A stretch of DNA of 54,654 bases from Intrasporangium chromatireducens Q5-1 (GTDB lineage: Bacteria; Actinomycetota; Actinomycetes; Actinomycetales; Dermatophilaceae), in the NCBI RefSeq assembly GCF_000576575.1, contig NZ_AWQS01000007.1:1-54654 (forward strand), read 5' to 3'. This document shows, in pieces, positions 10,166 through 13,341 of this stretch. Under the pieces are notes generated by a model. It had not been told where the DNA came from. It saw only the letters and a list, made by a program, of their open reading frames with translations, and searched no databases. Position numbers and translations under genes: made by a program. The first letter of the stretch is position 1. Every line of letters begins with the position of its first letter.

Positions 10166-10591
10166 AGCGCTATGACCATCGTGTTACTCCGCACGGCCAA
10201 ATGCAAACCGGCGCGCGTGTCATCGACGTCATGTCCAATTGCGGCCCGGCCCGCCGCTGTCGCGCACGTTCCAGCGGCACGATGGAGGCCCCGCGACTGC
10301 TGTCGCGGGGCCTCCCCGAGCGATCCGGCTACCATGCGTGCGATTCGTCTGTCGCCCCGGTTGTGTCCCCGGGGGTGGACGGTTCAAAGTGAACTGCTCT
10401 CGCGTGGGTACCTGGTCTCACCTCGGTCTTGTCACTTCTTGCCGTGGACCCGGCCGACGCCTCTCGGCGTTGTGGTTCCTGTTCCCTTTCTACCCCACGC
10501 GATTGGGGCGGGCTAGGGTTTGGCGGCCCCGCCCGGAAGTTCTGTCCCTCACGTCAGACAGCACCGTATGCCGCTCACTCCCGGCCGCTGC
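10166..10591. other. Gene-poor interval with one strong hairpin
   Basis: About 425 bases without a convincing gene. The frame open from 10073 to 10516 crosses the 6C RNA, has no ribosome site and reads as random Arg/Pro-rich sequence. The interval contains the perfect hairpin at 10282-10313 and the 10-mer GTATGCCGCT at 10566-10575, just beyond the stop of the Fic-like gene. Confidence 0.5.
10282..10313. terminator. GC-rich hairpin, possible terminator
   Basis: Perfect 13-bp stem (10282-10294 with 10301-10313) and six-base loop CTGCTG, no U-tract on either side. It could end transcripts of the Fic-like gene (minus strand) before they reach the 6C RNA. Confidence 0.5.
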
Positions 10592-11449
10592 TCAGCGCGG
10601 CAGGCGACCCGCCCGGACGCTGTCGCAGATCCGCATCCCCTCCGCGACGCCGGCCAGCATCGCATCGGCTGCGTGCACCAGCCAGAGGGTCACGCCCTCG
10701 GCGCTGCCCTGCGCATAGCCGGCGAGCGCGCCGCCATACACATGGGTCCGCTGCGAGAGGTGGCCCATCTCGGGGACGGCGACGCCGGTCGGGTCGAGGC
10801 CGGTCGCCTGGACCAACGCACGCTCCATCGCCCGGGCGACGATCCCGTTGCCGTAGACGAACGGCCGGACGGCGACGATCTCGGCATGGACAAGGGACGC
10901 GACGATGAGCCCCGGCACCTGCCCGGTCGCGGCCGCCCGGACGAGCCCGGTCAGCCCGGCGAGCCGTGCCACGACGATGTCCGCGGACGGAGCCGGCCCA
11001 GCATCGGCGAACTCCTCGCACGTCTCGTCGCCGACCCTCGGCCGGCCGAGGGCGGCGGCGTCGATGACCTGCCCGAAGCCGGCAACGTGCAGCCGCGCGA
11101 GCGCCTGCAACGGCGCGGTGCGCACAAGCCCGACGACCCGCTCGCTCTCGGCGGTGGCCTGCACGGCGGCACGCACGTCGGCGACGCCGGGGTCTGGGTT
11201 CTCCGGCCAGGGCCGGGCGCCGCTGATCAGCTCGCGCACCGTGTCGACGGGAAGCTGCGCCCCGCCGAGCTCCGCACTGGCCGCCGCTCCGCGGACGCGC
11301 GACTCGGCGGCCGCCTCGGGGATCCGGCGTCGGAGCGCCTCGTGGAACCGCAGGCGGGTGCACGCCTCGCGGACCGCCTCGGCCTTGTCCGCGACGCCGG
11401 GCAGGCCGGTCAGAGAGGAGATCTGGGCGATGAGCTGGGCGTCGGGCAC
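10592..11449 (-). CDS. Fic-like protein with degenerate active site
   Basis: 285-aa helical protein with a recognisable Fic core at residues 194-206, VRPFVYGNGIVAR. The family motif is HPFxx(D/E)GNGRxxR: here the catalytic His is Arg195 and the Arg of GNGR is Ile203. AMP transfer by the normal mechanism is therefore unlikely, and similar actinobacterial proteins are often labelled only as Fic-family or oxidoreductase. The GTG at 11449 gives a sensible N-terminus; the frame stays open antisense through trpS to 12382 but that part is shadow. It diverges from the trpS leader with only 26 bases between starts, so the promoters overlap. Confidence 0.7.
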   Translation of the reverse strand: MPDAQLIAQISSLTGLPGVADKAEAVREACTRLRFHEALRRRIPEAAAESRVRGAAASAELGGAQLPVDTVRELISGARPWPENPDPGVADVRAAVQATAESERVVGLVRTAPLQALARLHVAGFGQVIDAAALGRPRVGDETCEEFADAGPAPSADIVVARLAGLTGLVRAAATGQVPGLIVASLVHAEIVAVRPFVYGNGIVARAMERALVQATGLDPTGVAVPEMGHLSQRTHVYGGALAGYAQGSAEGVTLWLVHAADAMLAGVAEGMRICDSVRAGRLPR

Positions 11450-11475
11450 CCCATCACTGTAGGTACACTCGGTCT

Positions 11476-11517
11476 GTGACTTCGACCGCCCTGCGCGCGT
11501 GGTGGCTGCCCCTCTGA
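11476..11517 (+). CDS. trpS leader peptide with tandem Trp codons
   Basis: A 13-codon reading frame, GTG to TGA, encoding MTSTALRAWWLPL, with two adjacent TGG codons. Trp is otherwise rare, and the position 85 bases before trpS with a terminator-type hairpin in between makes this a classic attenuation leader. A TACACT -10-like hexamer at 11464-11469 would place the transcription start at or next to the GTG, so the leader may be translated leaderless. When charged tRNA-Trp is scarce, ribosomes should stall at the Trp pair and favour the antiterminator. Confidence 0.82.
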   Translation: MTSTALRAWWLPL

Positions 11518-11519
11518 GA

Positions 11520-11570
11520 GGCGGCCCTGTCGAGCATACCCATCCGAGCCGCCCACGGGCGGCTCGTTGC
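11520..11570 (+). promoter_or_regulatory. trpS attenuator: antiterminator and terminator
   Basis: The terminator-type stem is CGAGCCGCC (11545-11553) with GGCGGCTCG (11558-11566), loop CACG, followed by TTGCATGT. An upstream GGCGGC (11520-11525), directly after the leader stop, can pair with GCCGCC (11548-11553) inside the terminator arm and so act as antiterminator. The arrangement allows Trp-dependent choice between read-through and termination before trpS. Confidence 0.75.
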
Positions 11571-11602
11571 ATGTCACCCGTGGGTCCACCCCGAGGAGTG
11601 AC

Positions 11603-12685
11603 ATGACCATCACGACCGAACGCGACACGTATGCCGCTGCGCTGGCTTCCAGCGCTCTGCTCGACGCGCTCATCGACGAGCGCGCGGCGCAGGACCCGAC
11701 CCGGTTCCGGATGCTGACGGGCGACCGACCGACGGGGCCGCTGCACATCGGGCACTACCTGGCGAGCCTGCGCAACCGGGTTCGTCTGCAGGAGAAGGGA
11801 GTCGAGTCGTTCGTCGTGATCGCCGACTACCAGGTCATCACCGACCGCGACTCCGTCGGGGCGATCGGCGACAACGTGCGCGGCCTCGTGCTCGACTACC
11901 TCGCGGCCGGGCTGGACCCGGCGCGGACGACGATCTTCACGCACAGCGCGGTGCCGGCGCTGAACCAGCTGATGCTGCCGTTCCTGTCCCTCGTCACCGA
12001 CGCCGAGCTGCGCCGCAACCCGACCGTCAAGGACGAGCTGGCGCTGTCGGGCGGCCGGCCGCTCTCCGGGCTGCTGCTCACCTATCCCGTGCACCAGGCC
12101 GCCGACATCCTCTTCTGCCAGGCACGGGTCGTGCCGGTCGGCCGCGACCAGCTGCCGCACCTCGAGCTGACACGGACCATCGCACGCCGCTTCAACGGCC
12201 GGTATGCCGCTGGGCACAGTGTGTTCGCCGAGCCGGAGGCCCTGCTCGGTGATGTCCCGCTCCTCATGGGCCTGGACGGCACGAAGATGAGCAAGTCCAA
12301 GGGCAACGTCATCAACCTCGGCGACACGGCAGACGAGACGGCGGCGCGGATCCGGTCGGCGAGGACGGATCCGGAGCGGCACATCACCTACGACCCGGAG
12401 GCGCGTCCGGAGGTGGCGAACCTGCTGACCATCGCGGCGCTCTTCCGCGGGGAGTCACCGGCCGACGTCGCGGAGGCCGTCGGCGACGGCGGCGCGCGAC
12501 GGCTCAAGGAGGTCGTGACCGAGGCGGTCAACGAGGGGCTCGCCACCCACCGGGAGCGCCGGGCTGAGCTGGCCCGCGACCCGGGCTACGTGACACAAGT
12601 GCTGCACGAGGGCAACGCCCGCGCGAACGAGGTGGCCGACCGCACCCTCGCCACTGTGCGGGCAGTCATGGGCATGGGCTACTGA
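11603..12685 (+). CDS. trpS: Tryptophanyl-tRNA synthetase
   Basis: Cytoplasmic class I aminoacyl-tRNA synthetase that charges tRNA-Trp. Both class I signatures are present: HIGH at 48-51 (GPLHIGHYLASLRN) and KMSKS at 228-232 (GTKMSKSKGN). The length of 360 aa is slightly above the usual 330-340 because of about 30 extra residues before the Rossmann fold. The ATG at 11603 has GAGGAG five to ten bases upstream; the in-frame extension to 11567 would consume the attenuator and is rejected. Expression is probably set by the leader and attenuator at 11476-11570. Two copies of the 10-mer GTATGCCGCT lie inside the gene, both reading Tyr-Ala-Ala. Confidence 0.96.
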   Translation: MTITTERDTYAAALASSALLDALIDERAAQDPTRFRMLTGDRPTGPLHIGHYLASLRNRVRLQEKGVESFVVIADYQVITDRDSVGAIGDNVRGLVLDYLAAGLDPARTTIFTHSAVPALNQLMLPFLSLVTDAELRRNPTVKDELALSGGRPLSGLLLTYPVHQAADILFCQARVVPVGRDQLPHLELTRTIARRFNGRYAAGHSVFAEPEALLGDVPLLMGLDGTKMSKSKGNVINLGDTADETAARIRSARTDPERHITYDPEARPEVANLLTIAALFRGESPADVAEAVGDGGARRLKEVVTEAVNEGLATHRERRAELARDPGYVTQVLHEGNARANEVADRTLATVRAVMGMGY

Positions 12686-12720
12686 CCCGCGCCCCCCTCC
12701 CCCTGCCTCCCCTCACCGGG

Positions 12721-12762
12721 TCGATGTATTGCCGAGGCGCATAGGCCTCGGCAATACATCGA
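12721..12762. repeat. 42-bp palindromic element, copy A1
   Basis: Perfect 18-bp inverted repeat around the loop GCATAG. Arms begin TCGATGTATT and end AATACATCGA. It starts 35 bases after the trpS stop and precedes the convergent lipoprotein gene. It is the most regular of four gap-free alignable copies (others at 40041, 41147 and, inverted, 53849). Confidence 0.9.
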
Positions 12763-12780
12763 ATCGGTGATGTGGGGGAA

Positions 12781-13341
12781 TCAGGCGGTGGTGCAGTGGA
12801 ACTCGATCGACACGGCATCCTCGCCGACGCGACCGCTCACCGTCCCCTCGAGCCGGTCGCCCGTGAGCCGAGCCGTCGCCGTGGCGGCCGCCACCTGCTG
12901 CCGCTTGCCGCCGACCGTGACCTCGAGGCCGGCCAGCCGCACCTTCGCGGGCGACGCCCCGGCGCCCGGCACGCCACCGAGCAGCAGTCCGACGTACTGG
13001 CCCTGCGCCGCCTCGTCGTTGGAGTAGTTGGTGCCGAAGTTGGCCGTCACGAACTCTCCGCGCTGGCGGCACTCGGCGCCCTCAGCGTCATACGAGCCAC
13101 CGGGCACGGTGACGCGCGCCGCGCCGGCCCCGCAGTAGCGCACGACCTCCTGCCCGCCGTCGACGACACTGAGCCCGCACTCGAGGGCGAGCGGCTCCGC
13201 GGACGGTGGGCCCGTCGGCTCGCCGCCCTCCGCTCCGGGCGATCCGGGGGTGCTGCCCGCGCAGCCCGCGAGCAGCACCCCCAGCCCCAGTGCGACCCAC
13301 CGGGTGGGAGCCGGACGACCTAGCCGGAGCCGTCCGGTCAC
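12781..13341 (-). CDS. Predicted lipoprotein, 186 aa
   Basis: Exported lipoprotein of unknown function. The N-terminus is basic, then hydrophobic, and ends in the lipobox LLAGC, predicting lipidation at the Cys near residue 27. A Gly/Pro/Ser-rich spacer follows, then a soluble domain (about 50-186) with several Cys residues (ECGLS, RYCGAG, AECRQ, FHCTT) that could form disulfides. The GTG at 13341 is preceded by GAGAGG. It starts three bases after the stop of the LVIVD-type gene, so the two are probably co-transcribed and may act together at the cell surface. Confidence 0.75.
   Translation of the reverse strand: MTGRLRLGRPAPTRWVALGLGVLLAGCAGSTPGSPGAEGGEPTGPPSAEPLALECGLSVVDGGQEVVRYCGAGAARVTVPGGSYDAEGAECRQRGEFVTANFGTNYSNDEAAQGQYVGLLLGGVPGAGASPAKVRLAGLEVTVGGKRQQVAAATATARLTGDRLEGTVSGRVGEDAVSIEFHCTTA

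Follow-up and report, generated by a model that had tools for sequence, protein, structure and literature searches.

Known attenuators

The trp attenuator of Escherichia coli precedes a biosynthetic operon, its leader has a Shine-Dalgarno sequence and its terminator has a strong U tract. The region described here resembles it in the tandem Trp codons and in the logic of arms 1-2, 2-3 and 3-4, and differs from it in these three respects. The indolmycin-resistant tryptophanyl-tRNA synthetase (TrpRS) of Streptomyces coelicolor is reported by Vecchione and Sello in 2010 to be under ribosome-mediated attenuation, and this would be a similar case, a second TrpRS gene with the same type of control. 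Leaderless polycysteine attenuators of mycobacteria are said to have been described by Canestrari et al. in 2020. Judging by the title, the likeness is in the use of a leaderless short ORF as an amino-acid sensor, for cysteine there and for tryptophan here.

The accessible part of Seliverstov et al. 2005 (PMC1262725) contains predictions of attenuators upstream of trpS2 in S. avermitilis and of leuS in two Streptomyces, and mentions pheST in gamma-proteobacteria. The trpS2 case is similar to the present one, as a classical attenuator before an actinobacterial TrpRS gene, and is a prediction there, with no mention of a leaderless start for that leader or of gene duplication in the part in question. 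In the 2021 RNA-seq re-annotation of S. lividans (PMC8079986), the leader gene trpL2 with a leaderless start is placed before trpS. In strain TK24 this region, like ours, has a short Trp leader before trpS and two hairpins. It is reported as leaderless and as lacking a U-rich stretch, the U tract here being weak; the leader MMTRTCTQLWRAA contains one Trp, whereas the leader considered here contains two (PMC8079986). An indolmycin-resistant auxiliary TrpRS is mentioned in a review (PMC9437257).

These precedents, the trpS and leuS predictions in Streptomyces (PMC1262725) and the leaderless trpL2-trpS of S. lividans (PMC8079986), weaken the view of the initial annotation that attenuation of a synthetase gene, not of a biosynthetic operon, is noteworthy. 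Switches of this kind have been described before in Streptomyces, and the locus considered here is a well-supported new example, not a new mechanism. The breadth of the distribution, the link with gene duplication and the presence on two further TrpRS lineages were not found described. Among the titles listed, none pointed to an Actinobacteria-wide survey of leaderless trpS attenuators, in a search that covered the subscription literature thinly and leaves the absence of such a survey unproven.

Structure of the trpS upstream region

The window, that is, the whole analysed stretch of 54,654 nucleotides, is part of the 4.8-Mb draft genome of Intrasporangium chromatireducens Q5-1 (660 contigs). 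The trpS gene (plus strand, 11603-12685, ATG at 11603) has a Shine-Dalgarno box GAGGAG, identified by reading the sequence, at 11593-11598 and encodes a 360-aa TrpRS that scores 253 bits, above the cut-off, with TIGR00233 and also matches PF00579; thus the controlled gene fits the sensed amino acid, tryptophan. The nearest named relative at this locus, L007, is a metagenome-assembled Intrasporangium whose TrpRS is 87% identical. The I. chromatireducens genome contains two TrpRS matches, the second, at C117, having 37% identity to the product of trpS at 11603. Among solved structures, the closest are 1yi8 and a chain named TrpRS II, 2a4m. Nitric oxide synthase, the partner linked with TrpRS II, was considered on account of that name and rejected: none was found in the own genome, while the control matched in 2 of 14 genomes. 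Directly 3' of trpS there is, by eye, a perfect 18-bp inverted repeat (12721-12762), possibly a bidirectional terminator; two microRNA matches from Rfam, both below threshold, coincide with it.

All elements of the upstream region are on the plus strand. A candidate -10 box TACACT (11464-11469) is separated by 6 nt (11470-11475) from the GTG codon at 11476, the G of which is the predicted transcription start. This codon opens an ORF of 13 codons (11476-11517, stop codon TGA at 11515-11517) encoding the candidate leader peptide VTSTALRAWWLPL, and no Shine-Dalgarno word is flagged for it. Tandem Trp codons, the predicted stall site, occupy 11500-11505, and the motif AWWLP is conserved in the leaders of the seven closest named relatives (L007-L013). 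Arm 1, GGCTGCC (11504-11510), and arm 2, GGCGGCC (11520-11526), form a 7-bp pause helix. Positions 11520-11525 of arm 2 may instead pair with the core of arm 3, GCCGCC (11548-11553), forming the antiterminator. The same core lies within the 5' arm of the predicted terminator hairpin CGAGCCGCC(CACG)GGCGGCTCG (11545-11566; 9 bp, 4-nt loop, -19.0 kcal/mol), which is followed by a weak U tail, TTGCATGTCA (11567-11576). The stem is strong and the U tract weak, and the consensus terminator scan gave no intrinsic terminator here. Every element named in the initial annotation, the 13-residue peptide with Trp-Trp, the terminator-type hairpin, the GGCGGC arm and TACACT, is present before trpS; the pause partner GGCTGCC (11504-11510), which that annotation lacks, is present as well.

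A search of Rfam up to E 1 in the stretch 10200-13000 yielded four matches, all far under gathering and none a T-box or an amino-acid leader; a CC0196 match overlapping the leader (18.9 bits vs a gathering score of 35) was taken as chance. In six related loci nothing reached gathering score.

Proposed mechanism

The anatomy of the region, its conservation and covariation, the -10 spacing and the association with a second TrpRS gene are observed. On these grounds we consider it highly likely that an auxiliary trpS gene is controlled here by a ribosome-mediated transcription attenuator whose leader ORF is leaderless. The trpS gene is very probably switched on when charged tryptophan tRNA is short. 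The transcription start, the stalling, the termination and the tryptophan response in this organism are inferred from sequence and would be as follows. Transcription would start at the GTG codon, and the ribosome would initiate directly at the 5' terminus, no Shine-Dalgarno sequence being involved. The stop codon is located 2 nt before arm 2; therefore, when Trp-tRNA is ample, a ribosome terminating at 11515-11517 would cover arm 2 and allow arms 3 and 4 to form the terminator. When Trp-tRNA is scarce, a ribosome stalled on the Trp-Trp pair would cover arm 1, arms 2 and 3 would pair, and transcription would read through into trpS. If there is no translation, arm 1 would pair with arm 2 as the pause hairpin, and the terminator would again result.

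The terminator (-19.0 kcal/mol) is more stable than the antiterminator, which has -9.5 kcal/mol for the six pairs or -11.3 kcal/mol with a flanking stem. Equilibrium folding with the positions of the ribosome masked produced the terminator in all four states tried, and so was rejected as a model of the switch. As the terminator wins at equilibrium and masking does not change this, the switching must be kinetic and occur during transcription.

Conservation of the alternative helices

Alignment A1 contains 42 of the 51 accepted leaders. The terminator helix is paired in 94.9% of cells, and 52 cells, spread over 5 of its 9 pairs, are changed on both sides. The antiterminator helix is paired in 98.4% of cells, 2 of its 6 pairs having changes on both sides, from G-C to A-U. 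In the pause helix 93.9% of cells are paired, and 8 doubly changed cells fall in 2 of 7 pairs. These helices are mutually exclusive, and all three contain such two-sided changes.

Two controls were applied. When the partner was slid by 1-3 columns, pairing fell to 16-67% for all three helices, the structure being taken from this locus, which favours the unslid version. The covariation score and the number of paired cells were reached in none of 500 shuffles for any of the helices. Other single measures are separated less decisively from the shuffles: as many pairs with two-sided changes arose in 110 (antiterminator), 56 (terminator) and 43 (pause) of the 500, and as many further pair types in 485, 38 and 245, respectively; this control, unlike the slide control, is inflated by related sequences. 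The three-helix architecture was found in 36 of the 51 leaders, including the one considered here, vs 75 of 1020 shuffles, and is missed in the other 15.

Candidate leaderless start

In 46 of 54 distinct candidate leaders, whose starts were assigned by a promoter-blind rule, the pattern TANNNT occurs 6 nt (20 cases) or 7 nt (26 cases) before the start codon. The only other gaps within 0-35 nt are 10 and 16, two cases each. A Shine-Dalgarno-like word is flagged in just three of the 54. This set requires the stop codon to be no more than 9 codons away from the Trp codons, and thus leaves out leaders such as those of Flexivirga. Three ORFs (L064, L132 and one of two in L109) were dropped as chance WW ORFs before the remaining 51 leaders were counted, and none of the three has a -10 box at 6-7 nt. 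In all 51 accepted leaders TANNNT is located 6-7 nt before some in-frame start, compared to 12 of 12238 background upstream positions; the rise from 46/54 to 51/51 is due partly to that exclusion and partly to allowing any in-frame start. The -10 box lies at this distance in most candidates and in all accepted leaders, and the leader of I. chromatireducens itself combines a 6-nt gap with the lack of a Shine-Dalgarno word. By this strong, if indirect, evidence the transcript most likely begins at the leader start codon, that is, the leader is leaderless. The suggestion of the initial annotation that TACACT puts the transcript start at GTG agrees with this spacing.

In genomes with a single TrpRS gene and no leader, several trpS genes themselves look leaderless (by eye). 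The same is true of the divergent gene on the minus strand (approximately 10592-11449), with TACAGT at 11461-11456, a gap of 6 nt and GTG at 11449. This gene has no Pfam match, and a guess that it is Fic-like found no support. Its -10 box and that of the leader are two bases apart (region 11447-11469), and therefore both promoters should compete. In L007 the minus-strand arrangement is kept, and the plus-strand promoter is more distant (by eye).

Alternative explanations

The single sequence carries a signal only modestly beyond chance: dinucleotide shuffling recreates the three-helix architecture in 40 of 1000 cases, and two folding tests gave z-scores of -1.73 and -2.01, equally good folds arising in 9 of 200 shuffles each. 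The shuffle count would agree with a coincidence of an ORF and hairpins in GC-rich DNA. However, relatives across many genera of Actinobacteria show conservation, covariation and the -10 spacing, which makes this explanation hardly credible. It is this comparative evidence, not the single sequence, that makes the attenuator more than chance. One could also assume that the transcript starts further upstream and the ribosome initiates internally at the leader, since the consensus scan, which demands a -35 box, gave no sigma-70-like promoter at the locus. On the other hand, the constant position of TANNNT before the 51 leaders and the rarity of Shine-Dalgarno-like words speak against internal initiation, and a start more than approximately 27 nt further upstream would fall inside the divergent gene, so that this variant is quite improbable. 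The -35 box is reported as weakly conserved in C. diphtheriae (PMC5784534).

Another possibility is that control is mainly translational, the leader acting not on transcription but on a hairpin at approximately 11572-11603 that hides the Shine-Dalgarno box of trpS. There is a stem around GAGGAG in the minimum-energy fold, and several relatives have stems over this box. However, at this locus 40% of shuffles pair the Shine-Dalgarno box as well, and over 41 loci, some of them near-identical, its mean pairing is 0.69 vs 0.58 in shuffles. RNAalifold gave no consensus stem for 18 aligned relatives, a weak test, as the alignment is poorly registered. The terminator helix covaries strongly. A hiding hairpin neither clearly exceeding shuffles nor showing a consensus fold in that poorly registered alignment was rejected as the main control; we regard this mode as unlikely, if slightly less so than an upstream start, and retain transcription attenuation. 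The stem at 11572-11603 contains a word similar to CCGTGGGC that is common to many close relatives.

Distribution and link with duplicated TrpRS genes

The attenuator is associated with the presence of two TrpRS genes in a genome. In the family sample, a Trp leader was found in 35 of 35 two-TrpRS genomes examined vs 4 of 14 single-copy ones; L126 and L132, whose WW ORFs were judged spurious, are not counted among the four (6 of 14 if both are included). The 35 genomes are a subset of those with two matches, where a match is a TrpRS-like place and not a proven gene. In 32 of the 35, the leader has the WW pair; L099, L113 and L117 have one Trp codon or two separated ones (by eye), and score 67.5, 37.5 and 29.5 bits, respectively, with the covariance model. 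Together with the covarying exclusive helices in 42 leaders, the presence of a Trp leader in all 35 two-copy family genomes examined supports the initial proposal of ribosome-mediated attenuation of trpS.

Among 50 named genomes the attenuator was found in 11 of 13 two-copy genomes, the two exceptions both being Occultella, vs 6 of 37 single-copy genomes. Fisher tests on these tables use hand counts and ignore shared ancestry, and the family and named samples overlap in some genomes. In 30 of the 80 named loci the covariance model has a match upstream of trpS; 12 of them are outside its training set, some being near-identical to sequences used in building it. Carriers include Streptomyces, Kitasatospora, Nonomuraea, Mangrovihabitans, Nocardioides, Microbacterium, Georgenia, Flexivirga, Austwickia and several Propionibacteriaceae. 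Read on the opposite strand, the same palindromic hairpins score up to 29 bits, and scores below approximately 30 bits prove little. This applies to L053 (23.1), counted for its WW leader and -10 box, to L117, counted for the leader seen by eye, and to L075 (19.3), which is in neither two-by-two table.

Sites upstream of other genes

In the own genome the covariance model gave 66.6 bits at this site, which is one of its 42 members, and 25.5 bits at the next best; no second strong attenuator site was seen among the 150 of 10014 first-look candidates that were scored. A leader before trpE or before the second TrpRS gene of this genome was rejected: within 500 bases upstream of the own-genome matches L006, L136 (trpE) and L137 (a weaker match to the trpE family) there is no WW ORF of up to 40 codons, and the covariance model, applied up to E 0.1, has no match in L006 and L136-L138.

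Scanning of 59 family genomes produced 19 matches of at least 34.9 bits. Seventeen of them are directly before trpS of the type considered here. The other two, L170 and L174, precede TrpRS genes of other lineages (39% and 36% identical, respectively), and in both TANNNT is located 6-7 nt before a WW leader (by eye). This suggests that the switch may have become attached to different synthetase genes. No TrpRS was seen next to three weaker matches that were looked at (L150, L175 and L176).

A repeated decamer

The window contains 14 copies of the decamer GTATGCCGCT (e.g. at 10566-10575, 11629-11638 and 12202-12211), with 0.02 expected. The own genome contains 1107 copies vs 12 of the reversed word. 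In the 59 family genomes, at least 317 copies are found in each of five (G000, G043, G041, G044, G050), and at most 133 in each of the other 54, many of which are near the control count. Some copies form inverted pairs approximately 20 bases apart (by eye). By analogy, the decamer recalls DNA uptake words.

Implications

The observations extend the Streptomyces switch to many other actinobacterial genera. They provide strong evidence at the sequence level for leaderless initiation as the rule in the trpS attenuator, and they tie the attenuator to duplicated TrpRS genes. A more speculative interpretation, which we put forward tentatively and hold to be rather doubtful, is that the leader, the leaderless promoter and the three-helix switch may form a portable cassette that makes an auxiliary TrpRS inducible across Actinobacteria. 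Attached to at least three TrpRS lineages, such a cassette would mark back-up synthetases that come into play when the housekeeping enzyme fails. The attenuator may be of use in finding inducible, possibly inhibitor-tolerant, back-up synthetases, and could serve as a test bed for the coupling of leaderless translation to transcription termination.
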